In this document: positions 12,087 through 50,886 of the stretch, in pieces | Layout: every line of letters begins with the position of its first letter | How positions within the stretch are numbered: the first letter of the stretch is position 1 | DNA from: Clostridiales bacterium | GTDB taxonomy: Bacteria; Bacillota; Clostridia; Lachnospirales; WQUN01 | Length of the DNA: 64,000 bases | Direction of reading: 5' to 3' | Assembly: GCA_031270945.1 (NCBI GenBank) | Contig: JAISWZ010000188.1 | Coordinates: 1 to 64,000, forward strand | The notes under the pieces: model-generated | Databases searched by the model: none | Seen by the model: the letters and a program-made list of their open reading frames with translations, nothing else | What the model was told of the DNA's origin: nothing | Program-made: the position numbers and the translations under genes

Positions 12087-12647
12087 TCAATGCCATTGCC
12101 TTTCCGTCGCTATGCGATCCAAAGGGACATCCCATGGATCCGCTTCAAGCTCTTCGACCCTCTGCGCTTCAAAGGCGACCCCTATCTTTGCCGCGTTTAG
12201 GCACTGGGGGAGATACCTGTCATAATAGCCCGCGCCCATTCCAATCCTTGCGCGAGTCAAGGCGTGAAAAGCGGTGCATGGGACGATGACCAGGCCTATG
12301 TCGCTTGCTTTTATCAAGTCGCACTTGCCTTCAACAGGAGATATGATCCCGTACTTTCCTACCTTCAAGCCATCTTTCCCATGGGGTGCCGCCGCCACAA
12401 GCATATAGCCCTCTTTGCATATGGGAAACGCGACCTTCTTCCCGGAATCAATGGCCCATTGGTTAAAGGCCTCCATATCAACCTCGCCGTTAAAGGCGTT
12501 ATACGAAAGAATGACGTCTGCCGCTATCCATTCGGAAGCGATAACCCTTTCGCAGATGGCGAGGCTGAGCTTTTTTCGCTCTAAGGCAGGAATGGCGTTT
12601 CTTGCGGCTATTCCTTGGGATTTCAAGTCGGACTTGGTTTTGGGCAT
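12087..12647 (-). CDS. 5-formyltetrahydrofolate cyclo-ligase
   Basis: Family signature ARIGMGAGYYDRYL; RBS GGAGGTG. Confidence 0.93.
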   Translation of the reverse strand: MPKTKSDLKSQGIAARNAIPALERKKLSLAICERVIASEWIAADVILSYNAFNGEVDMEAFNQWAIDSGKKVAFPICKEGYMLVAAAPHGKDGLKVGKYGIISPVEGKCDLIKASDIGLVIVPCTAFHALTRARIGMGAGYYDRYLPQCLNAAKIGVAFEAQRVEELEADPWDVPLDRIATERQWH

Positions 12648-13020
12648 TGGACACCTCCTGGGTTTGGTTTGGTTTTGCTATTTTTATTTGCTTGACTAAA
12701 GCTTACCACAGATTGAGGGTGGCGTCCCGTGTTTATTCTAAACATTCAAGCCTAATCATCGGTTAATGCTGCTATCTCCAAACATTGGCTAGAAGAAGCA
12801 AGCAGCTTCAGGCTTTCCGCCCCTAAAACAAATGCCTGAAACTCAACAGAAATCCAAGTCTGCCTGTTATGGCAATATGAAAATGCTACTCAATATCAGT
12901 TGATTTTGCCACTCCCAAGAGAGATAATAGAAGTGATTTTTAACCTGCGGCATGCCCAAAACGCAAGTTCTTCCCCAGCTGGACATGCCCTGAATATGCA
13001 TTCGCGAAGGAGTGCAACCC

Positions 13021-15193: not shown

Positions 15194-16096
15194 ATGCATC
15201 TAATAGAAAAGTACGATGGCGGCTCGTGGAAGATAGACTCGATGCTAGGCGCCGGATTTTCCGGCAAAGTCTATAAAATCTCTAAAATAGGCTCAAACCC
15301 TCCAATCCAGGAAGCGCTAAAGGTCTTCTCCCTGCCGGAGATCAGACAAATTATCAAGAATAGCCACCCGGAATTTGACTCAGCCCAGTTGGATCGCTGC
15401 GCAGATTTGCAGCTGGACTCTGCCCGCGAGAAAATCTTGGCTTTCCAAGAAGCTGACTCCCCGTATATCCTCAGCTATCACCATTTTGAGGTGGTCGAAA
15501 CCGACGAGGATCCAGGCCCGCATTTTTTCCTGCGCATGGAATTGCTTCAAAGCCTGGAGCTGGCTTATGCTCTTAATCATTCCTCCGAGAAAGACGTCTG
15601 CAGGCTAGGCGTTGACATCTGCTCAGCGCTTGAGCTTTATGCCAAAAACGGATTGGTGCACGGAAACATAAAGCCCTCAGAGATTTTTCTGGCACAGAAT
15701 GGGGGCTACAAGCTTGGAGGGTTTGAGCATTCCCATCCAGCAGACGCCAAGCCTGCAAACGCAGGGATCGTGGGCGCTCGTTATTATACGGCCCCTGAAG
15801 TTGAAAAAGGGCTTAATTCTGGGAATTCAGACTTGTATTCCTTGGGGATGGTCATGCACCAGCTGCTAAACAATGGCCGGATGCCTTTCGTTTCCCAAGG
15901 CAAATCGGCAAAACCTGGTGAAACAATCGAAGCTCGATTCAAGCGCTTAAAAGGAGACGCTCTTCCTCCTCCAGTCAACGCTTCCCCAGCACTTGCAGCC
16001 ATCGTTCTCAAGGCTTGCGCATTCGATGGCGAAAAGAGGTACCAGAGCACCACTGAAATGAAGAACGCGTTGCTAGGAATCAACAGCTTCCGATAG
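15194..16096 (+). CDS. Ser/Thr protein kinase-fold protein, predicted pseudokinase
   Basis: LGAGFSGKVYK glycine loop, EALKVFS, VHGNIKPSEIF (HRD to HGN), YKLGGFEHS (DFG to GFE), GARYYTAPEV. Confidence 0.8.
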   Translation: MHLIEKYDGGSWKIDSMLGAGFSGKVYKISKIGSNPPIQEALKVFSLPEIRQIIKNSHPEFDSAQLDRCADLQLDSAREKILAFQEADSPYILSYHHFEVVETDEDPGPHFFLRMELLQSLELAYALNHSSEKDVCRLGVDICSALELYAKNGLVHGNIKPSEIFLAQNGGYKLGGFEHSHPADAKPANAGIVGARYYTAPEVEKGLNSGNSDLYSLGMVMHQLLNNGRMPFVSQGKSAKPGETIEARFKRLKGDALPPPVNASPALAAIVLKACAFDGEKRYQSTTEMKNALLGINSFR

Positions 16097-19998: not shown

Positions 19999-20079
19999 AC
20001 TATTCCCTTGTAAATGCTTTTCTTTAAACTGATCACATTGGTATATTTTCTTTAAACATTGGTATATAAAGGAGGAACT

Positions 20080-20564
20080 ATGTCATTCATTGAAAAATAC
20101 GATCCCGCTTGGAGCATAGATTCCGAGCTCGGAGAAGGCGGCTTTTCAAAAGTCTACAAAATAGTCAAAGAGGAATTCGGCAACAAGTACTACTCTGCGA
20201 CGAAGGTTATCCCCGTGCCCCAGAATAGCGCGGAGCTCAAGGATCTCAAGAAGAATGGCTTATTGGGGAACTCCTTTACACTTACATATCTGAGATGGCA
20301 AAAGGCAAAAGACCTGATCAACGAAATTAACATTGTGCGAGAATTCGAGGGAACGACAAACATTGTGAATTACGAGGATCACAAGGTCATTCCAAAAAGG
20401 AATGCGAGCCCGGGTACCTCATTCTCATTCGCATGGAGCTGCTTGAAAGTCTGCAAGCCCGAATAAGCACATATTCAGAAACTAAAAAAGCTCAGTCCCC
20501 GTACCAGAGGAGGCTGAGCTTAGAACCAGTCGTAAAATTATATGAATACAGTAGATTTTGGTGA
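20080..20564 (+). pseudogene. frameshifted, truncated Ser/Thr kinase N-lobe
   Basis: MSFIEKYDPAWSIDSELGEGGFSKVYKIV...; near 20410 the reading shifts frame to YLILIRMELLESLQARISTYSETKK before stopping; no C-lobe. Confidence 0.75.
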
Positions 20565-21163: not shown

Positions 21164-21421
21164 CTAATTTATTCCAACAACATTTGCGCACGTAGGTGCG
21201 CAGCTGTTGCTGCAGTTCACTGCACAAGCGTTAGCGCAACCCGCTATGCACGTTGAAACGCAATCGCCTTTGCATGATGAGACGCATTGACTTGAGCACG
21301 CGGTAGCGCATGCAACAGAGCAACTGTTACCACACAATCCTGTGCAGCTTCCGTCGCAAAGTCCAGAGCAAACTCCCATTAGCATGGGAAGTGTCGCACC
21401 GAATATTTTGCTTTGATACAT
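21164..21421 (-). CDS. CXXX-repeat RiPP precursor peptide (85 aa, 16 Cys)
   Basis: MYQSKIFGATLPMLMGV-CSGLCDGSCTGLCGNSCSVACATACSSQCVSSCKGDCVSTCIAGCANACAVNCSNSCAPTC-ANVVGIN; RBS AAGGAGG before the internal ATG. Confidence 0.88.
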   Translation of the reverse strand: MYQSKIFGATLPMLMGVCSGLCDGSCTGLCGNSCSVACATACSSQCVSSCKGDCVSTCIAGCANACAVNCSNSCAPTCANVVGIN

Positions 21422-21730
21422 AACTCTTCCTCCTTGCCTTAACGAGCGAAAAAAATCAAACTTTCGCCATAAACAGATAATTATTACAAGTAAAACCAAA
21501 ACAAACCAGATTATTATAGGTTTACTTGTAAATATATAAGTTCAATCCTTATCTTCACTTCTTCATTATTATCCTTGATAAAGTTCTACTGCATAATCAT
21601 GGATAACCAATCAATTCGTGAATAAATGATTGAAATTAATATCTTTAATATAAATTCTATCAAAAAAGCTTCTCTTGTCTCAATGTTGTTTTGTTATATA
21701 TAATTATATTTGCTTCATAAAACAACTTAT

Positions 21731-24049
21731 TTATTCACTCATGCGTAAAATAATATTGCTTTCCGCATCATCCAGAGCATCTTCAAGGCTCATTTTTTCA
21801 TCCAGAAAACTGATTAACGGATATGCGAGATCTTGCTTGTAGTAGCTCATGTCATACAAGTAGTCAACGCTGGATTGAATCAAGTCGAACTGCCTGTTTT
21901 CGAGTTGGTTAAAGGCTCTGTATCCGCTATTTCTCTTCATTTGCTCAGCCTTTTTGTTCAATGGCGATGATGATAAGGATCTTGGGGTTTGCGATTCCTC
22001 TCGTATGAGCCAGCTTAGAAACATCCAGGCTTCTTCCACTTTCTCCGACGAGTTTGATATGGAATACATCCGGTATGCGTAAGCTATGGAATTTCGGTCT
22101 TTTTCACCGCTGAAAGCGGGGATGTACATAACGCTCTGGGCTGACAGATCAAGCTTTGCAATCAGATCCCCATAGGATTCCGATAGGGAGAGCAAATCGG
22201 TAAGCAAGGCATCGTCTGTTCCTGTCAGATGCCTTTCATAGGGCACTTCCTTGTTCAAAACCCCTTTGTCCCTGGCGGATTTATAAGTTTCAACCAGCTC
22301 AGTGAACCAGTCTTGGCGCAAGTCAACAGTTTTTTCCTCCAGGTTAATAAGCGAGGGCATCTGGGCGATCAGCATCGGCACAAATATATTCGTGTCAGGA
22401 TTTGCGCCTTGCGAAGTTTTAAAAAGGCAAATATCCGGATACTTTTCGCTTATATCCAGCCACTTGTCCAGGACGCCTTTCCAGGTCATGTTATCGCTTA
22501 GCTCAAACCCTATCTTGTCGCCCAGCTCCTTGTTGTACATGTGCGCAGTGTAAATCGTTCCTACAGGCAAGCCTGTCACTTTCCCCTTCAGCGTTATGGC
22601 GTTGAGCACATTTTTGTTAAGGTCTTCATAAGACGGGTCTTCCTGCAGAAGCTTTGCTAGATCCACAAACGCGTCAGTCTGAAGGATGTCCAGGTACGGA
22701 AGACCCATGCCGCCTGTGGCAACTATGTCTCCTACGTCATTAGCCATGATCTTGGCGGCAAGTTTTTCTCCTGCAAGTTCAGTGGATTTCCTGAAATCCT
22801 CCTCGGAATGGGAAATGACATCCCATTCAACCAAGAAGTCATTGTTCTCCAGCTCAAATTTCCTAACGGACTCTTCCAGGAAGTCTTGCTTGTAAGCGGC
22901 TGTTATAGTAATCGAGCGGCTTTTTGGCGCCTCGGTTTTGGCGCCAGGAGCAAAGGCCATCCTGTACAAGCGGCTTGAACGGTTGGAGCGCTTAAGCGTT
23001 CCTACAAAAAAGTCATCGCCGCTTGACGCGAAGAAGTTCAGATTTTCCATGTAATCGTCGTTGTAATCCCCTAAGATGAACGGGGTGTCTGTACCGAACT
23101 CCAGAACCGTTTCCAGTGTTCTCCAATCTAGCTTGTAAATGGCGTCCTTATTGGCCAAATGCACTGTGCCGTCTGGGTTGGCGGAAACAAAATAGTCGCC
23201 GTTAACCTTAAATCGGTTAACTATCTCATAATCCCTGAAAATGTCGCACTTTAGAATTTCGTAAGTTCCTTTTCGCCCATTGGTTGAGACAGAAGCGTAC
23301 AAGTATCCATCGTCGTTTATGTCAATATGAGAAACCATGAACTGGCTAAGCACTCCGTCAAGCTTTTCCCCAGTATTTGCTGAATTTGCTGCAAGCATTC
23401 CGCCCTCTATAAAGTATGCGCCGCCGTCTGTGACTCTGAAATCATCAACAAACATCGAAAGCACTGTCTCAAACTTTGCGGATTCTTTAAGCGCTTCAAG
23501 CGAACCTTGCGTACTATTAACTTTATTGTTATTTTCGTCATACGCTTCCAGCACAAACTCCGATATCTGATCTTGGACGAATTTGTGATAAACCAGATAA
23601 ACATATCCATTCTCGTCAACGTCCCAGTTCACCAACCAATACGAGTCGTCATGATTTTCAAAAGGCTTGGTTATTTTATTCATGTCAGGATAAAGCCCTT
23701 GATGTATTGTCCCGCCGTTTTCTAGAGAAAAATATAAAACCCGCCCCAATAAGTCTGTTTTCAAGGCGTAGGGCGCTTCGTATTCATCGGATCTAATGAT
23801 CTCTGTTTCGTAATGATAGTCTTTAACAAACACCTGCGGCTCAACAAGCTCAGTGACGGCGGGCGTTTGCTCCTGCGGTTTGGCGTCAGTGAAATTTGGC
23901 GCAGGCTCTCTTGTGGCAGGGGTCTGTGACGCTTGAACCAGATAATCCGATTCAATTTTAGGCTTAGTTAATGATCTTAAGCTGTAAACAATAAACCCTA
24001 TAAGCATAACACCTATACAAATTAAAGCGTATAATTTATTTTTTTTCAT
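21731..24049 (-). CDS. membrane-anchored extracellular solute-binding protein (family 1) with long N-terminal domain
   Basis: N-terminal TM; propeller-like VDENGYVYLVY / INDDGYLYASVS units; C-terminal SBP-like KVTGLPVGTIYTAHMYNKEL, EEAWMFLSWLI. Confidence 0.75.
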   Translation of the reverse strand: MKKNKLYALICIGVMLIGFIVYSLRSLTKPKIESDYLVQASQTPATREPAPNFTDAKPQEQTPAVTELVEPQVFVKDYHYETEIIRSDEYEAPYALKTDLLGRVLYFSLENGGTIHQGLYPDMNKITKPFENHDDSYWLVNWDVDENGYVYLVYHKFVQDQISEFVLEAYDENNNKVNSTQGSLEALKESAKFETVLSMFVDDFRVTDGGAYFIEGGMLAANSANTGEKLDGVLSQFMVSHIDINDDGYLYASVSTNGRKGTYEILKCDIFRDYEIVNRFKVNGDYFVSANPDGTVHLANKDAIYKLDWRTLETVLEFGTDTPFILGDYNDDYMENLNFFASSGDDFFVGTLKRSNRSSRLYRMAFAPGAKTEAPKSRSITITAAYKQDFLEESVRKFELENNDFLVEWDVISHSEEDFRKSTELAGEKLAAKIMANDVGDIVATGGMGLPYLDILQTDAFVDLAKLLQEDPSYEDLNKNVLNAITLKGKVTGLPVGTIYTAHMYNKELGDKIGFELSDNMTWKGVLDKWLDISEKYPDICLFKTSQGANPDTNIFVPMLIAQMPSLINLEEKTVDLRQDWFTELVETYKSARDKGVLNKEVPYERHLTGTDDALLTDLLSLSESYGDLIAKLDLSAQSVMYIPAFSGEKDRNSIAYAYRMYSISNSSEKVEEAWMFLSWLIREESQTPRSLSSSPLNKKAEQMKRNSGYRAFNQLENRQFDLIQSSVDYLYDMSYYKQDLAYPLISFLDEKMSLEDALDDAESNIILRMSE

Positions 24050-24211
24050 TTCAACCTCAATAATCTTGAATTCACGTCTTCCTTTATGCGTTCACATGCG
24101 CACCTTGCGAACGTTATATCACCGAACAACACAGACTGCTAACACGAAGTACTTCTTACTTCCATAGCTATAAATACAAAATAAATATTAGGTAAGGGGA
24201 CAGTTCAACTG

Positions 24212-24472
24212 CTATTCTTCAATCATAATTTTCGAGCCCTCAAAATCTACATAACATCTTAAGTTTTTCAGTTCGTACTTTTCATTGATATCATCCCACC
24301 ATTTTTGAAACAAGCGCGTTGTTTTCCCATAATCTGCAACAAACTTCTCGTAAAGTGAGGAATTTAAAACGTCAGGCAATTTGGCCAGATTTTCAAGAGC
24401 AATCTTCCTTTCAAAAAGTTCCTGTATGTACTTTAACTCTTCATTTGTTAAATCACAAGCAACTCTATTCAT
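24212..24472 (-). CDS. small accessory protein, likely 'CXXX repeat peptide modification system protein'
   Basis: 86 aa MNRVACDLTNEELKYIQELFERKIALENLAKLP...; immediately downstream of the maturase. Confidence 0.6.
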   Translation of the reverse strand: MNRVACDLTNEELKYIQELFERKIALENLAKLPDVLNSSLYEKFVADYGKTTRLFQKWWDDINEKYELKNLRCYVDFEGSKIMIEE

Positions 24473-24485
24473 CGCATATCATCTC

Positions 24486-26618
24486 CTAGACAGTGTAATA
24501 TCCAATTTTTACATTTTCAAGTATTTTCACTATAGGATCGTCATAACCTATCTCCGTCAATCCCTCTTTTTCAATTTTTAACCTGTACAAATTAGAAATT
24601 TCTCTTTCAATATGGCTCTTTTTACATTGGAACGAAGGTGGAACATTAATTTCACGTGTAGTCTTTACGTTGATGTATATGCAGCCTAAGCATTGATAAG
24701 AATCACAATTAGAGCAAATAGGTCGTCTAGAGTTTTTGTACATTTCCTTGTTAAATGTCCCTTTTATGCCTATGTAAGCGTCGCCCACACTGTCTATCTT
24801 ATCCTTTCCATAAAAAGCAGAGCATACATATATCTTCGAGTCCGGTGCATAAACGAAGGAGCGATTTCCAGCTTTACAGTTATCAAAATCATCGATATAG
24901 CACAGATCTGTTATAAGATTTACTTCCTTACTTATACCTGCTTCATGATATTTTACAAGGTTTAGCATTATTTTCTCTAGTTGAGATTTGTATACGGCAT
25001 TATTAAAAGTACGTTCTACATCCAATATATTTAAGTTGATACGACTTGACTTTTCCAACAGAACAGAAACAAGTTCATTTAACAAACATATGTCATTCGA
25101 ATTCACATTCAACATGCAACTAATTAGTCCATATATAGGTAAATATACGCTTTGTTTATCAAAAATCAACATGCACTCTTTTAACGTTTTGGATTCTTCA
25201 TAGAACTTCGCCGGAACCATATGAAAAATTGTATAGTCATTGTATGCGTCATCGTGACTATAAGTAAATTTCTTCGATGAATGCACGAATATCGGCCTAA
25301 AGAAATCCTTTCTACAGAATTTCAACCCTTGCAAAATATCATTACTACTCATCAACGTTTCGGAATTCGAAGAATTACTAACAGAACAATAATCCACATG
25401 ATCATCAGAAAGAAGAAAATAAAGCCTTTGCGTGTCTCGACCATTAAAATCTTTTTTAATTCCGTAAATATTCAGCAGTTTTGAAAAATAATAATCGTTT
25501 GCGCGAACACGCGCTTTATGCATTTTGCATATGTACTTCGCACGATAGAAATTGGTTGAATCTGGTGACTCATCATAACAGAAGCCTTGACAGAAGCTAC
25601 ATCCCCATGCTACAGGACACTCTAAGCATTCAGAATCACTTTGAAGCGCATATGTGGCTGTCATAAAAGGTCGTACTTTTTCCATGTCAATGCCACTATT
25701 AACATCTCCAATGCACCACTCATCTTTATTATTCAGGGAATATGATCGAAATCTTATACAAGGATATATTTTTCCGTCATTGCCAACCGCTATCATTTTT
25801 CCAGCGCCGCAACTCGTAGATGTCAAATCATTTAGGCCATAGAACCCTCCTATATTGTCATCAAAAAGCGAACATCTGTACTGGTTATGCAAATTATTCT
25901 CGATAATATAATCTGCTAATAATATCATCTGTTTTTCAAATACTAAATCATCGTCGTACTCCCAAACATTTTCAAATACAACATTGGCAGAAATGTCATG
26001 TATCCCCATTTCCCAAAGAGATATGATACTTTCTTGTAAATAGCATAAATCAGCATGTGCAAATGTGACTTTTGTGTTCGCCCTGAACTGCGATTTCCAT
26101 ATTTCTATATTTCCAGAAATTTGGTCATAAGAACCACTACCGTCAGGAAATACTCGTTGTAAATCGTGTTTAGTTTTAGTGCCATCTATAGTGATACTCA
26201 ATGACAATTTATCTTTATTCTTAGCAATATATTCTTGAACCTTTGAATTTGAATAGTTGACTCCGTTCGTGCATATATTAAAACGATAGTTCCAGTACCA
26301 TGGATGATCAATCTCAAATGCTCTTATCTTAAAATAATCGCTTAGTCGATCTATAAGGTCAATTTCTAGAAGCGGTTCCCCTCCGATAAATTCCAAGACA
26401 ACCGAATTTGGAAAATTTATGTCAGCCGAAAGAATGTAATCTATGAATTTTTTGCCCGTTTCATAATCCATCTTTTTTTCAGACGATTTATGCGTAATAT
26501 AGCAATACTTGCATCGAAGATTGCATGCATCTGTCACGACAAATGTAATAGTTTGACTGTTTCCCTCATTCCATATTTCTACATTCTTTCCTACCATATA
26601 TTCACTCATTGCATCCAC
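24486..26618 (-). CDS. radical SAM/SPASM peptide maturase, CXXX-repeat target family, with second Cys-cluster domain
   Basis: VVTDACNLRCKYCYI (CxxxCxxC), GGEPLLE, CGAGKMIAVGNDGKIYPCIRF, CLECPVAWGCSFCQGFC, and C-terminal CSNCDSYQCLGCIYINVKTTREINVPPSFQCKKSHIEREI. Confidence 0.88.
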   Translation of the reverse strand: MDAMSEYMVGKNVEIWNEGNSQTITFVVTDACNLRCKYCYITHKSSEKKMDYETGKKFIDYILSADINFPNSVVLEFIGGEPLLEIDLIDRLSDYFKIRAFEIDHPWYWNYRFNICTNGVNYSNSKVQEYIAKNKDKLSLSITIDGTKTKHDLQRVFPDGSGSYDQISGNIEIWKSQFRANTKVTFAHADLCYLQESIISLWEMGIHDISANVVFENVWEYDDDLVFEKQMILLADYIIENNLHNQYRCSLFDDNIGGFYGLNDLTSTSCGAGKMIAVGNDGKIYPCIRFRSYSLNNKDEWCIGDVNSGIDMEKVRPFMTATYALQSDSECLECPVAWGCSFCQGFCYDESPDSTNFYRAKYICKMHKARVRANDYYFSKLLNIYGIKKDFNGRDTQRLYFLLSDDHVDYCSVSNSSNSETLMSSNDILQGLKFCRKDFFRPIFVHSSKKFTYSHDDAYNDYTIFHMVPAKFYEESKTLKECMLIFDKQSVYLPIYGLISCMLNVNSNDICLLNELVSVLLEKSSRINLNILDVERTFNNAVYKSQLEKIMLNLVKYHEAGISKEVNLITDLCYIDDFDNCKAGNRSFVYAPDSKIYVCSAFYGKDKIDSVGDAYIGIKGTFNKEMYKNSRRPICSNCDSYQCLGCIYINVKTTREINVPPSFQCKKSHIEREISNLYRLKIEKEGLTEIGYDDPIVKILENVKIGYYTV

Positions 26619-26777
26619 TTCCTCAATCGCTAATTGCGCAGAAAATAGCTTTTTTTCTTTTCCTTAATCAATCAACTTCATATTAGACGTGTTCATTTAA
26701 ATGAACAGATTCCTACGTACACGGATTACCATTATGCGATAAACTTACAGCACCTAATTAAATCCATTATTGATAAT

Positions 26778-28496
26778 TTACATTTTTTCTATTGCTTCTT
26801 TTTCAAACAGCTCCTTATAAAGAACATTTCTAGATAAAAGTTCTAGATGCTTCCCAAAATCCTGTATTTCACCATTATCTATTAAAAAAATGCAGTCGCT
26901 TTTTTCTACAGAAGATAACTTGTGACTTATAAAAATAACAATTGAGTTCTTAGCCACTTCAGATAAAAGATCCATTACTTTTTTCTCGAATTTACCATCA
27001 AGATCAGATGTTATTTCATCTAATAGCAAAACAGAAGAGTGTTTCAGGAGCGCTCTCGCAATATTTATTTTTTGTTTTTGACCACTTGAAAGCAAATTTC
27101 CATCTTCTCCTAGTTTTGTCTTTAAACCATTTATAAGCATTTTCTCCAACTCATTAATTTCTGCCTTTCTGCAGACGTCTGCAACTTCAGTTTCATCCGC
27201 CTTCGGATTAGCTAGTTTAACATTCTCAATTAATGAGTCATTAATTATAAACACTTCTTTTTGTGCATATGTAATGTTATCTCTTAAACTCAATAACTTT
27301 ATCTCACATATATCTTTATCATTTAGATAAACAACTCCACTTTGTATTTCATAAAACCCCATCAATATTTTAGCCAGCGTACTCTTCCCACAGCCATTTC
27401 TTCCTACAATGCTATATAAGCCCGGCTTATCAATATCAATCGAAATCCCCTTAAAAATTTCCACTCCGTCAAAATAACTAAATTTTAAGTTTTTAATTTT
27501 AATTTTCCTTATGTCTCCTAAATCCAATCCTGCATTCAATACTTCAGAATCATCATCTAACATTCCGAATATTCTATCAGCACTTACTGATACTGTCTGA
27601 GCTTGTATGTTAAAAGCTAAAATTCTCGAAACAGAATCGAACAATTTTCCAACGTACGTGTTAAATGCAACCATGTTTCCTATTGTCAATTTTCCCTCAA
27701 TTATGAACCTTGCCGATGTGTATATTGTAAAAAGAGTAAACACAAGCAGAATTGCTTGGCTCCCAATATTCATGAAGTTGCTCAAAAAAAATGTTCTTTT
27801 AAGTATTGACAGCTTTTTATCAGTGAATTTTAAAAAATCAATACGTGATGCACCTTCGGACATAAAAGAGCGAATACCTTTAATGTTCGCAAATGTAGAA
27901 TCGACAAAGCTATAATATTTGTCATGCAACTCTTTTTCTTGCTTTGATAAAACTTTAAACTTACTTCGAAAAACTATATTGTTCAAAGCAGTCAATGGTA
28001 TAAATAAAATAGCAATTATAGACAATCCCGCAGATATTGAAAAAACAAAGTAAAGAGAAACAATTAAATTAAAACTTATTAAAGCGATGCTTGTTACTAA
28101 ATTTAAGCAAAAATCAACAATTGCATTGGTATCAAATTCAAGTCTAGATATCAGCTCTCCTGTTGTTAAAGCGTCTAGCTTTTTAAACCTAAGACGCAAT
28201 ATTTTTTCAAATATGGCCAATTTCACTTCATTGTTCACTTTAAATGCAAACATTTCCCCTATGTAACTTTCGTACATCCCTAAAGCCATTGAAACTATCG
28301 TAATTGCAAAATAAGCAGCAATGCATATTGGCAAATCGGATACAGAGCCGATTGTAACAACATCAATCATTTTTCCATAGATATATGGACTGATGTTTGC
28401 CGTAATAACTCCAAATACTATGAGAATTATCAAAAAAGAAATAAACACTCTGTGCTTTTTAAAAAACAAAATATAAAACCGATTAAACGTTCCCAC
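26778..28496 (-). CDS. ABC transporter, fused permease and ATP-binding domains (probable peptide exporter, no C39 peptidase seen)
   Basis: 6-TM exporter domain; Walker A VGRNGCGKSTLAKILMG; LSSGQKQKINIARALL; VLLLDEITSDLD. Confidence 0.9.
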   Translation of the reverse strand: MGTFNRFYILFFKKHRVFISFLIILIVFGVITANISPYIYGKMIDVVTIGSVSDLPICIAAYFAITIVSMALGMYESYIGEMFAFKVNNEVKLAIFEKILRLRFKKLDALTTGELISRLEFDTNAIVDFCLNLVTSIALISFNLIVSLYFVFSISAGLSIIAILFIPLTALNNIVFRSKFKVLSKQEKELHDKYYSFVDSTFANIKGIRSFMSEGASRIDFLKFTDKKLSILKRTFFLSNFMNIGSQAILLVFTLFTIYTSARFIIEGKLTIGNMVAFNTYVGKLFDSVSRILAFNIQAQTVSVSADRIFGMLDDDSEVLNAGLDLGDIRKIKIKNLKFSYFDGVEIFKGISIDIDKPGLYSIVGRNGCGKSTLAKILMGFYEIQSGVVYLNDKDICEIKLLSLRDNITYAQKEVFIINDSLIENVKLANPKADETEVADVCRKAEINELEKMLINGLKTKLGEDGNLLSSGQKQKINIARALLKHSSVLLLDEITSDLDGKFEKKVMDLLSEVAKNSIVIFISHKLSSVEKSDCIFLIDNGEIQDFGKHLELLSRNVLYKELFEKEAIEKM

Positions 28497-29022: not shown

Positions 29023-30174
29023 TTAACCTTGGGCATTATTAATCAAATAAGAGTCTAGCCCTTTCATTCCCATCTTCAAAATCCTTGCAATCTCAAAGAT
29101 CCCAAAAGCCGTTAAAGCCATCCTAGCCCAGAACATAACAGGATATGCCATTTCATAGGCAGACCTTTTATGCGCGTAAAGAAGGTTGCCCTCCCTAATC
29201 TTCTCGCGGACAATGCCCCGGTAGAACGAGAAGTCAAAGAAGCTCTGATCCGGCGCATACTTGCTTGGAATAAAAAGCTCAAACCTGACCTTTCCGTAAA
29301 AAACAAGAATCAAGGCTATCGTTGCAGCAATGGCGATAAAAGCCTCTGCCAACTTGGTTGCGTTGGATTCGCTAGACAAGCTTTCTGTTTTCAAAGAGGC
29401 CGCAACCGTCTTGAACTGGCCAGCGCAAAAAAGCCAGCAAGCCTTCGCCATTAGCAGAGACAAGGCCAAAAACCCTGAAAATTTCACAAAAAGCCAGAAC
29501 TGGTCAAGAATGTATTGGGATCTGCTAAAATCCCTGGCAACATAATTTTTGCCGCTTGCGCCTAATGCGCCAAGGGCGTCCGAAGCCGCGAAAGGGCCAG
29601 ATGTTGAAACCCACACGCTTGAAACCGCAGCCGCCTGAGCATATGCCTTGTCAAACCCGCTATTTGCCGGCAGGTAAACATCTCTTATCCCGTCGTCCGA
29701 GACAGCCGCAAGAAGCCAGTTTTCTCTGTAGACGCCGCATACCTGGTAGCGGATCCCGTTCAGCTTGAATTCTTGCCCCACCGAGTCAGCGACCCGGAAA
29801 ATTTCAAAAGACAAGTCTTCGCTTATCAGAGCGCTGTTTATCCCGTATATGACAGCTCCATCAGAAAAGGTTGAGCCGCTTGAAAAGTGAAAATCCTTGA
29901 ATTCATCCAGCTCCGAGGTTGTCACAAAAACATTGACAGAAATGGATGGTTCGCTAATGCCCCCCACGACCCCGCCAACTTCTTTGAAGCAAGCAGCGTT
30001 GCTTCCGAAGGCTTCTCCCGCTTTTTCAAAGGTTGTCCCGAAGCTGGCGTTCATCCCGTAATTCCTTGCGTGAAGCTCAACCCGGCTCATCAATCGCGGA
30101 AAAGCAAAGTCAAGCGCAAAGCCGCAGATCACAGACAAAACCAGTCCCAAAGCCGCGCAAGCCATCTTTCTCAT
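29023..30174 (-). CDS. ABC permease-like membrane protein with MacB-type extracytoplasmic core
   Basis: N-terminal TM, large extracytoplasmic domain, C-terminal TMs; start overlaps the upstream stop by ATGA. Confidence 0.6.
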   Translation of the reverse strand: MRKMACAALGLVLSVICGFALDFAFPRLMSRVELHARNYGMNASFGTTFEKAGEAFGSNAACFKEVGGVVGGISEPSISVNVFVTTSELDEFKDFHFSSGSTFSDGAVIYGINSALISEDLSFEIFRVADSVGQEFKLNGIRYQVCGVYRENWLLAAVSDDGIRDVYLPANSGFDKAYAQAAAVSSVWVSTSGPFAASDALGALGASGKNYVARDFSRSQYILDQFWLFVKFSGFLALSLLMAKACWLFCAGQFKTVAASLKTESLSSESNATKLAEAFIAIAATIALILVFYGKVRFELFIPSKYAPDQSFFDFSFYRGIVREKIREGNLLYAHKRSAYEMAYPVMFWARMALTAFGIFEIARILKMGMKGLDSYLINNAQG

Positions 30175-30821
30175 TGCGCGATCCTCACTTTCATCCCGTT
30201 CTTGACAGCCTTGGTTGTGCCTGAAATGAAGAGATCCCTCTCTGAAAGCGACTGCGAGACAGCTGCATTGAAGTCATCTTCGGCTTCAACATCCACTTCT
30301 TGCCTCCTTGCGACATAAGACTCTCCAAGCGCTCCGCTCTCGGTCTCCACGCGGTAAACGTACGTCCCGCCTCCCTCCCGGAAAACGCAGCCTTTTGGCA
30401 GGACGTTTGGGTATGTTCCGATTGAGTGCCTGAAGCTGACATCGCATTCCTGCCCGTCATAAGCGCCCTCAGCGCCAGATGCCTTGCACTTGGCAACGAC
30501 TGACTGGCTATTCTCGTCAAATGACTTCTCCGCAACTATGCAATCAACCCGTCCTGCCAGGTTTGAAAATGAAGCGTAGACCCTCCCGCCTTCCTTGAGA
30601 ATGCTGTCCTGCTCCAGCCCTATGGAGAAATAGACAAATGAGTCCCTGTAAACCCCGCGCGATCTCGCGTCGTATCCCAAGCTCTGGGACATCCGTCCAG
30701 CGACTCGCACCTCTGGCGTCATCCAGTAGTCGATCTTCGAGCTAGCCAGCGTAAACGCAAGCATCACAGCGAGAAATGCCGCTGCGGCCTTCACAATTCT
30801 CTTGCTCGGCATAAAATTCAC
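30171..30821 (-). CDS. membrane-anchored adaptor-like protein (HlyD/RND-adaptor C-terminal-like)
   Basis: 216 aa; N-terminal TM; ..LPKGCVFREGGGTYVYRVE.. resembles the adaptor membrane-proximal domain; coupled to the next ORF. Confidence 0.5.
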   Translation of the reverse strand: MNFMPSKRIVKAAAAFLAVMLAFTLASSKIDYWMTPEVRVAGRMSQSLGYDARSRGVYRDSFVYFSIGLEQDSILKEGGRVYASFSNLAGRVDCIVAEKSFDENSQSVVAKCKASGAEGAYDGQECDVSFRHSIGTYPNVLPKGCVFREGGGTYVYRVETESGALGESYVARRQEVDVEAEDDFNAAVSQSLSERDLFISGTTKAVKNGMKVRIAQ

Positions 30822-30923: not shown

Positions 30924-31751
30924 TTATTTCAAGCTTCCGGCTGCTATTCCCTCTATCAGCCCTCCATAGTTCATTGCGCATGCCAAGCATGGCAGAACCA
31001 TTGCCACCACTCCACAAGCCGGAAGGCCTCTCGCAAGAGCCCCCAGATTCAGCGACAATGGGAGCAAGTCTTGGCTGGACAGGAAAACCAGCGGCTGCTC
31101 AACCATTCCCCAACTGTCAATGAAAAGAAGTATAAATAGCGCCGACATAGCACTCTTGGACATCGGGGCCACAATCCTGAAGAACGCGCCAACGCTTGAA
31201 AGCCCGTCTATCTTTCCCGCCTCAAGGATCTCACCGCTTATCCCCTTTATCATCTGCGCCGACATGAAAACCCCGAAAGCGCTGAATATTCCCGGAAGAA
31301 CCAGCGACAGCTTCGTATCCAATAGCCCCATGGCCTTAAGCGTTATGTACTGCGGCACAAGCGTTGCCTGAAAAGGCATCAGCATGGCCGCTATGTACAT
31401 GAAGAACAGGAAGTCCTTAAACGGGAACGTGAACTTCGCAAAGCCGTATCCTGCCGCAAGGCTTATCGGAATGGCAAGAACTGAAACCAGCAGCGAAACT
31501 TCAACCGAGTTCCAAAACCACTTCAAGTACTGCGGCATTCTTAAGAGAACAGATTCAAATTGGTGGATGGAAAAGTCCCTGGGCAATACGTAAGCGCCCA
31601 AGGGCTCCGTTGCTGACTTGAAAGAGCTAGAAACCGACAGAAGCGCCGGAAGCAGGCACAGGACGCATAGCGTTGCCACAAAGAGCCTGCTTCCCGCTTT
31701 TTTTAGCATAAGCAATCCCTCTTTTTTAACTCTATAGCTGCGAGCGGACAT
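30924..31751 (-). CDS. carbohydrate ABC transporter permease (MalG-type)
   Basis: EAA loop EAGKIDGLSSVGAFFRIVAP; 6 TM pattern. Confidence 0.85.
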   Translation of the reverse strand: MSARSYRVKKEGLLMLKKAGSRLFVATLCVLCLLPALLSVSSSFKSATEPLGAYVLPRDFSIHQFESVLLRMPQYLKWFWNSVEVSLLVSVLAIPISLAAGYGFAKFTFPFKDFLFFMYIAAMLMPFQATLVPQYITLKAMGLLDTKLSLVLPGIFSAFGVFMSAQMIKGISGEILEAGKIDGLSSVGAFFRIVAPMSKSAMSALFILLFIDSWGMVEQPLVFLSSQDLLPLSLNLGALARGLPACGVVAMVLPCLACAMNYGGLIEGIAAGSLK

Positions 31752-32634
31752 ACCTCTCCTGCGCCTTTAGCGCTAGCCATATGCCGGCAAAAAGAACTGA
31801 GGCCAGCATAAGCGACGCTGTTGTCAGCCTCTGGTAGTTTAGCTTGAAAAAGTTGTTGTTCATGAAGTGCGCAAGCATGTATACGCTCTTGGGCGGATCG
31901 GTTCCGAATATGGCATGGATGTCCCTGAATGCCCTGAAGCTGTTTGCCACAGCTATGACCATAGCGAAAAGCGCGGCCGGCATCGCCAGCGGTATCGTTA
32001 CGTAAAGCGCCTTCTTGGCCTCGGATGTTGACTCCAGATCAAACACCTCGTAATGCTCCTTTGGTATCTGCGATATCGCGCTTGTGAATATGACAGCCAG
32101 GTATCCGATGTTCTTCCAAACATACAGCGCCACCGCCGCGCCCATGGCCGCGTCTCCAGACAATAGCCCCGGCATCTTCCGCCCTGCGGCCGCCGCGATC
32201 CTCACAGCTATTCCATCATCGCCAAGCAGCATGCTCCATCCGGCGATAACAGCGGAAACTGGAACTATGTATGGCGTCAGCATGGATACCATGGCCATGG
32301 AAGATGCCCGCCTCGACAAAGCCATTCCAGCCGCCAGTGATATCACCAGCGCCAGCGGAACCCCCGCCCCCATGTAGACCAGCGTGTTCTTGGCGGCCAG
32401 CTGAAACGCCGGGCTTTTCAGCAAGTCCACGTAGTTGTCCAGCCATACTATCTTCACGTCCGTTATCCCGGATGTGATGGAATACCATATGCTTATGAAA
32501 AACGGAGCTATCACAAAGCATACAGTCCCCGCCAAGCTTGGAAGTATGAATAGCAAGCCTATTGCGGCTTCTTTCTTTGCGTTTCTTGTCATAGCCACCA
32601 CCTTTGCGCTAGGGTTTGGCAGTTTGCTTTCCAA
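31732..32634 (-). CDS. sugar ABC transporter permease (MalF-type)
   Basis: FILPSLAGTVCFVIAPFFISIWYSI; EVFDLESTSEAKKALYVTIPLAMPA. Confidence 0.85.
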   Translation of the reverse strand: MESKLPNPSAKVVAMTRNAKKEAAIGLLFILPSLAGTVCFVIAPFFISIWYSITSGITDVKIVWLDNYVDLLKSPAFQLAAKNTLVYMGAGVPLALVISLAAGMALSRRASSMAMVSMLTPYIVPVSAVIAGWSMLLGDDGIAVRIAAAAGRKMPGLLSGDAAMGAAVALYVWKNIGYLAVIFTSAISQIPKEHYEVFDLESTSEAKKALYVTIPLAMPAALFAMVIAVANSFRAFRDIHAIFGTDPPKSVYMLAHFMNNNFFKLNYQRLTTASLMLASVLFAGIWLALKAQERYVRSQL

Positions 32635-32659
32635 TGCGCTAAATTCGCTCTAAATCAAA

Positions 32660-32693
32660 TATTGGGATATGCATGAATGGCATATCCCAATAT
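32660..32693. repeat. compact GCATATCCC palindrome
   Basis: ATATTGGGATATGC-ATGAATG-GCATATCCCAATAT. Confidence 0.85.
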
Positions 32694-50628: not shown

Positions 50629-50886
50629 AAGAGCATGTCCCAAGGTGAATGCCGAAAGTTTCCAGAGTCCAGCAAATCATTTTAGGGCTTTGGCGACTTG
50701 CTTTTGGGATATGTACCAAGAGCATATCCCAAAATTATATCCGAGGCACCGGAAAAATCCGGATGTTTGCTCGTAGAAGCCCGAGCAAACTAGTTGAAGC
50801 GTTCGCCAGGATTTTGGCGATTTGCCCTTGAACATTGGGCAAACGCTATCCGGTGCCATTTCGGAATTTTGGGATATGCACCAAGA
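50629..50886. repeat. two adjacent GCATATCCC palindromic elements, the second with a nested hairpin
   Basis: AAGAGCATGTCCCAAGG...CTTTTGGGATATGTACCAAGAGCATATCCCAAAATTATATCCGAGGCACCGG...CCGGTGCCATTTCGGAATTTTGGGATATGCACCAAG. Confidence 0.88.

Follow-up and report, generated by a model that had tools for sequence, protein, structure and literature searches.

A CXXX-repeat RiPP cluster with a two-halved maturase and an importer gene set in a Clostridiales genome

A peptide in which cysteine recurs at every fourth position raises two questions: what its maturase makes of it, and what the product is for. Such a peptide is encoded in the window examined here, a 64,000-nucleotide stretch of the Clostridiales bacterium contig JAISWZ010000188.1. 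CXXX-repeat peptides are already a named family, and the open literature, as searched here, contains no characterized CXXX product, no text on the family, and nothing on the combination of a RiPP with an importer. New in the present analysis are an importer set within CXXX clusters, a maturase made of two halves, a YxSK[IL] leader that precedes a core without a fixed acceptor residue, and a TIGR04116 accessory protein that does not come out as a RiPP recognition element. The importer, in particular, yields a directly testable statement on what the CXXX product is for. The explanation that we favor, and hold with as much doubt as confidence, is that the CXXX-repeat RiPP is exported and then recaptured by a dedicated importer, as a signal or a metallophore.

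The precursor and its family

The precursor gene lies at 21164..21421 on the (-) strand and translates as MYQSKIFGATLPMLMGVCSGLCDGSC...CAPTCANVVGIN. All 15 gaps between its 16 Cys residues, the first of which is residue 18, are exactly three residues long. The 85-residue peptide consists of a 17-residue leader, MYQSKIFGATLPMLMGV, which bears the YxSK[IL] motif common to its relatives, a (CX3)15C core, and the tail ANVVGIN, and a GGAGG ribosome binding site is situated ∼8 nt 5' of the ATG. The original prediction had described an open reading frame of this length with its own ribosome binding site, a leader of about 17 residues, and 16 Cys at exact four-residue spacing, and each of these is borne out by the translation. 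It had also held that the Cys spacing is conserved and the DNA is not. Indeed, Tandem Repeats Finder detects no repeat in the precursor DNA, and the mean identity of the repeat units at X codons is 27%, versus 28% for shuffled codons. As judged by alignment with homologues, the X residues are not free and are inherited in register: 21 of the 42 compared match the Lachnospiraceae precursor L030 in register, and ≤9 do so in any other register, with corresponding values of 17/42 versus 6 for L032.

The array could in principle be a chance open reading frame, or belong to a decayed cluster that has lost its function. We give this next to no weight, as it is already refuted by conservation: the frames are intact, a ribosome binding site is present, and the X residues are conserved in register with L030. 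A chance origin is further excluded because the 8.8-Mb genome of this organism (a fragmented assembly, 76% complete) contains no second comparable coding array, while homologous precursors are found beside related maturases. Other six-Cys pattern matches in the genome are short or lie inside low-complexity TGC runs.

Relatives were collected by one scan of named genomes, which gave 16 loci, and further genomes were reached through those loci. In a phylum-wide scan of ∼400 genomes with the maturase alignment, the window alone matched at E ≤ 1e-90, which indicates that the system is rare; named loci were accordingly the route to its relatives. Nearly all of the related maturases are adjoined by homologous precursors that share the leader motif and the period. 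Those of branch A carry Y-x-S-K-[IL] among their first residues and those of branch B carry LFSxKKI...DVxGY, and the first Cys falls at residues 16–25 in every leader-bearing precursor. The number of Cys ranges from 4 (Anaerococcus, Peptoniphilus) up to 18 (the Lachnospiraceae precursor L030), and the natural four-Cys precursors make structure determination feasible. In branch A, 203/232 Cys gaps are of three residues, and most of the others are of two. The description of the peptide as strictly four-periodic with 16 Cys thus holds for the window but is not unique to it; on these comparisons it is a long member of a family with 4 to 18 Cys, not an outlier. The NCBIfam precursor models score it below their cut-offs (TIGR04114, 16.9 bits against 20; TIGR04117, 14.3 against 50). 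Since they give no match to L131 or L032, and L030 reaches TIGR04114 only at the limit (20.0 against 20), these models miss most of this precursor branch.

Several relatives depart from the common arrangement. In Dielma fastidiosa, two precursors (L033:7913-8143 and 12443-12658) are almost without a leader, with the first Cys at residue 4 or 5. A normal maturase lies between them, and the leader may accordingly be used differently in this species. A 245-residue CXXX-like precursor (L155:7403-8137) carries its Cys core N-terminally and a leader-like domain C-terminally, opposite to the order in its relatives L150, L151, L153, and L154. A CXXX cassette is also carried by the conjugative plasmid pAPRE01 of Anaerococcus prevotii (NC_013164.1, L157 1-14339), where it immediately precedes a class III lanthipeptide (lanKC) cluster.

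The maturase and the limits on its chemistry

On the same strand as the precursor, as originally described, are an 86-residue protein, a radical SAM/SPASM protein, and an ABC exporter. The radical SAM protein (24486..26618, (-) strand) exceeds the curated cut-offs of both NCBIfam maturase models, TIGR04115 in its N half (469.7 bits against 350) and TIGR04119 in its C half (211.5 against 150), and the 86-residue protein (24212..24472, (-) strand) matches TIGR04116 with 64.4 bits against 50. The check by CXXX models that had been proposed therefore succeeds for maturase and accessory protein and fails for the precursor, and we regard membership of the cluster in the NCBIfam CXXX-repeat system as nearly certain. 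Translation of the maturase more likely begins at ATG 26609 (MSEYMVGK...) than at GTG 26618, because the putative ribosome binding site extends up to the GTG.

Eighteen Cys residues are common to 31 full-length maturases. The CX3CX2C motif, C32/36/39, occurs in the N half only, in 30/31 sequences (the remaining row starts late). It is followed by a first SPASM set of seven invariant Cys at 270, 287, 331, 334, 340, 343, and 364, and a second such set lies in the C half at 581, 599, 635, 638, 643, 646, and 665. C411 is likewise invariant and aligns with the middle Cys of the triad that the C half has lost. Profile comparison relates the halves at 97% over their whole length and at 84% for SPASM against SPASM, and it is these two comparisons that support a duplication; the barrel parts compared alone give no signal (2.8%). 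We read the C half as a degenerate radical SAM/SPASM duplicate that has kept its auxiliary-cluster ligands, and the two halves together present predicted ligands for up to five iron–sulfur clusters. An AF2 model of the maturase, built from a shallow alignment (mean pLDDT 70), has as its closest folds CteB (5wgg/5why), anSME (4k39), ChlB (9gmc), TigE, and SkfB. The neighbors of this predicted fold are thioether- and peptide-modifying radical SAM/SPASM enzymes.

Half-size TIGR04115 enzymes with much longer precursors exist as well. Two IMG/VR contigs classed as viral encode TIGR04115 maturases (L099:5001-6095, 473 bits, and L103:5001-6143, 420 bits), and no CX3 precursor of the usual type was seen near either. 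In another locus (L147:6440-7643, genome G538) the maturase is in pieces, and the precursors, solute-binding protein, exporter, and permeases look intact.

A homologue of the TIGR04116 protein accompanies 24 other maturase loci, and the family is present in 13/15 genomes with related loci and 0/14 control genomes. Its AF2 model (pLDDT 91) is arranged as a strand, two long helices, and two strands, which does not correspond to the three strands and then three helices of a winged-helix recognition element, and no PDB fold matches it at E ≤ 0.001. On this model, the protein is not predicted to be a RiPP recognition element; that it binds the leader is a guess.

The sequences of the precursors themselves constrain the chemistry. 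In the 203 CX3C units that branch A supplies, even the most frequent residue at an X position accounts for no more than 28%; G leads at X2, and S/T do so at X1 and X3. Asp or Glu occurs in only 2/15 CX3 units of the window peptide, D/E/N/Q are absent from 8/15, and in one unit (IAG) all side chains are nonpolar. PapB links Cys to the Asp β-carbon in CX3D motifs and accepts Asp or Glu (PMC9413430), a rule that cannot apply here since the window units largely lack these residues. The absence of a fixed acceptor residue among the 33 precursors compared argues against Cys–Asp/Glu links of the PapB type and thereby narrows the chemistry; judged from these alignments, what remains is a bond from Cys to a backbone carbon of a variable residue, a bond from Cys to the next Cys, or a change confined to Cys.

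An odd number of Cys in 14/30 precursors indicates that complete Cys–Cys pairing is not enforced, and as far as the comparative data go, they do not require pairwise disulfides. The same count speaks against a metallothionein-like peptide, unmodified or disulfide bonded, that is never cross-linked by the radical SAM enzyme. Such a peptide would fit a repeat in which no X position is fixed and Cys is the only invariant. It would leave without employment, however, a dedicated maturase in which all radical SAM and auxiliary ligands are invariant and whose N-half family, TIGR04115, groups with thioether-forming enzymes, and we consider it very unlikely.

In the scheme that we favor instead, the family of the maturase and its conserved ligands point to a radical modification at Cys, and the leader motif points to leader recognition. 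The short YxSKI leader would bring the precursor to the maturase, possibly aided by the TIGR04116 protein. The N half of the enzyme would then modify Cys at each CX3 unit, walking along the array, and the modification would most likely consist of thioether cross-links of local reach (i to about i+4); the original prediction had suggested that such links could be of sactipeptide or ranthipeptide type. The degenerate C half retains a further two sets of cluster ligands, and its task is probably to hold or position the peptide, or to pass on electrons.

Exporter and importer genes

The ABC exporter (26778..28496, (-) strand, 572 residues) has a homologue in nearly all related clusters. Its membrane domain (PF00664, 106 bits) and ATPase domain (PF00005, 93 bits) suggest that the product is exported. 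It has no C39 peptidase domain, and secretion would proceed without a leader peptidase built into the exporter.

The bounds originally proposed for the cluster, 21164-28496, proved too short. They pass over a 772-residue solute-binding protein (SBP; 21731..24049, (-) strand) adjoining the precursor and omit the genes beyond the exporter; as read from its gene content, the cluster reaches about 32634 and includes an importer set. Thus, the precursor, 86-residue protein, maturase, and exporter had been recognized correctly, and the importer and the two-halved nature of the maturase had been missed. All on the (-) strand, the set begins with a MalF-like BPD_transp_1 permease (31732..32634), followed by a MalG-like ABC permease (30924..31751), a 216-residue protein without a Pfam match over cut-off (30171..30821), and a 383-residue membrane protein containing a MacB_PCD domain (29023..30174; PF12704, 41.8 bits against 27). 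The MalF- and MalG-like proteins are each 50% identical to their homologues in L029, the latter being found in further CXXX clusters too; the 216-residue protein has homologues in L029 and L030, and the MacB_PCD protein in L029, L032, L030 (by Pfam), L184, and L178. Both Pfam matches that place the set with CUT1 importers exceed their cut-offs in the window: SBP_bac_8 in the C half of the SBP (PF13416, 41 bits against 27) and PF00528 in the MalF-like permease (43.5 against 26.4). The cluster in the window encodes no MalK-type ATPase, a component identified by OB_MalK and TOBE domains in L029 and L032 and by homology in L184, L185, and L178. The N terminus of the SBP is a hydrophobic anchor without a lipobox, and its N half is unclassified, with propeller-like repeats as an impression only. 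The closest solved structure by sequence is CbpC (7x0o).

A terminator-like hairpin (33058-33023, (-) strand) lies upstream of the MalF-like gene, and a promoter scan of the cluster gave nothing above chance. A perfect 14-bp palindrome just 5' of the same gene (32659-32693) was considered as an operator and set aside: a near copy at 50703-50733 precedes an unrelated S-layer (SLH/transglutaminase) gene, and the element may be a dispersed repeat. The flank of the cluster within the window also contains a complete protein-kinase gene (15194-16093) and a truncated kinase-like open reading frame (20059-20466).

The importer set emerged from clustering the neighbor genes of CXXX loci. Complete or near-complete sets, in shuffled gene order, are present in eight CXXX clusters from six genomes: the window, L029 and L032 (G456), L030 (G457), L135 (G1242), L147 (G538), and, in G528, L131 with L184 and L132 with L185. 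In G528 the order is radical SAM enzyme, TIGR04116, precursor, SBP, precursor, SBP, precursor, exporter, permeases, MacB protein, MalK. A ninth SBP–permease set (L178, G540) is at a contig end in a genome where no maturase was found. Many CXXX clusters lack the importer; those maturases that have it belong to a single group of 11 rows with support of 98/91, within which its distribution needs at least two gains or losses. The SBP family has nine members in CXXX clusters. A search of the own genome with its alignment (19 candidates scored) gave a single match at E ≤ 1e-15, at the CXXX cluster. In 24 genomes all matches above 800 bits are inside CXXX clusters, with the next at 179 bits, and in 394 genomes around G528 the match at the G540 contig end is the only one above 900 bits to lie outside a CXXX cluster. 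The alignment was built from CXXX loci, and this specificity is accordingly partly circular; what is informative is that strong members are not found elsewhere. A C-terminal motif after the last Cys, xG[MILFQ], is shared by precursors of 7/8 importer clusters versus 3/18 others (Fisher p 0.001), and having been defined after looking at the data and being confounded by kinship, it serves as a lead only.

We regard it as probable that the importer is part of the CXXX system. One could nonetheless propose that it carries an ordinary sugar and that the CXXX genes do no more than fall under its regulation or benefit from its niche. The C half of the SBP is nearest to sugar-binding proteins, and the module does occur without CXXX: L182 (2610-10671, G456:C11) comprises MalF, MalG, a P216-like protein, MacB_PCD, an SBP with a lipobox, and MalK, with no RiPP genes. 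From this we conclude that the module probably predates the link to CXXX, and, taken with its membership in the CUT1 sugar-type group, that the original ligand was something else. Yet the linkage is repeated in six genomes despite the shuffled order, precursor and SBP are adjacent and co-duplicated, and 9/9 SBPs of CXXX clusters lack the lipobox that is present in five relatives outside them. In addition, the SBP relatives that come next in similarity, in G656, lie around a CcpM maturase (632 bits against a cut-off of 500), which belongs to a different Cys-rich RiPP family. On balance, a mere sugar importer appears improbable. The L182 module lies between apparent two-component systems. At the G656 locus (L180:4713-12659), the SBP relatives and CcpM maturase are accompanied by an ABC exporter and several broken SBP copies, and a search there for a Cys-rich precursor found none.

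A peptide with bacteriocin activity would assign these genes differently: SBP, importer, and MacB protein would provide immunity or sensing, the tethered SBP neutralizing or reporting the peptide at the surface. An anchor without a lipobox, unlike that of relatives outside CXXX clusters, is in keeping with such a role, as are the precursor–SBP pairs in tandem, the MacB_PCD protein, a type also known in antimicrobial-peptide efflux, and two conserved upstream genes in Peptoniphilaceae CXXX clusters that by eye resemble a histidine kinase and a response regulator. The MalF-, MalG-, and often MalK-like proteins, however, make up a complete importer, which goes beyond what binding or sensing needs, and no ATPase of the MacB type turned up alongside the MacB protein. 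We judge the bacteriocin unlikely.

Recapture, the reading we favor, is suggested by the linkage and by the co-duplication of precursor and SBP. The peptide, either by itself or carrying a ligand (a metal ion, for example), would be bound by the membrane-tethered SBP and returned to the cell through the MalF/MalG-like importer. No metal-linked gene was identified. Whether the CXXX peptide is itself imported seems to us evenly balanced. A fuller version, in which CXXX peptides are secreted, cross-linked carriers or signals reclaimed by a tethered SBP and a CUT1-type importer, with each Cys linked to the next unit without a fixed acceptor, possibly to the β-carbon of the Cys four residues on, is decidedly speculative. 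We know of no RiPP with this last chemistry.

Comparison with known systems

The cluster resembles the NCBIfam CXXX system (TIGR04114–TIGR04119) in a maturase and an accessory protein that score over the cut-offs and in a CX3-repeat precursor adjoining the maturase; it differs in that its precursor falls below TIGR04114 and TIGR04117 and in a dedicated importer that is not in those models. Outside CXXX families, the N half of the maturase scores best against the PapB model (188 bits), and freyrasin, the PapB product, likewise has repeated short Cys units on one precursor. The score is nevertheless far from the NF047865 cut-off of 340, position +4 in the window is Cys and not Asp or Glu, and the PapB model, at 330 positions, contains nothing that corresponds to the second half of the maturase.

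CteB, the SCIFF maturase, is the closest solved structure by sequence (5wgg, E 4e-34) and by fold, whereas the window maturase reaches 120 bits against the TIGR03974 cut-off of 425, and SCIFF has six Cys that do not form a repeat. The links from Cys to α-carbons in sactipeptides accept varied residues and would fit variable X positions. Sactipeptides such as RumC, SkfA, and thuricin CD differ in their few Cys, often in nested hairpins, and in the low scores of the maturase against their enzymes (RumMC, 75 against 720).

For the presumed recapture, peptide metallophores such as methanobactin would offer a parallel, in that a Cys-containing RiPP is secreted and is served by a binding protein and an importer of its own. 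The enzymes and importer class of the CXXX cluster differ from those of methanobactin. The importer itself is of the CUT1 (MalEFGK) type in its SBP_bac_8 and BPD_transp_1 domains, and in the OB_MalK/TOBE domains of its relatives. It stands apart from other CUT1 systems in an SBP of almost twice the usual size, tethered without a lipobox and encoded inside RiPP clusters.
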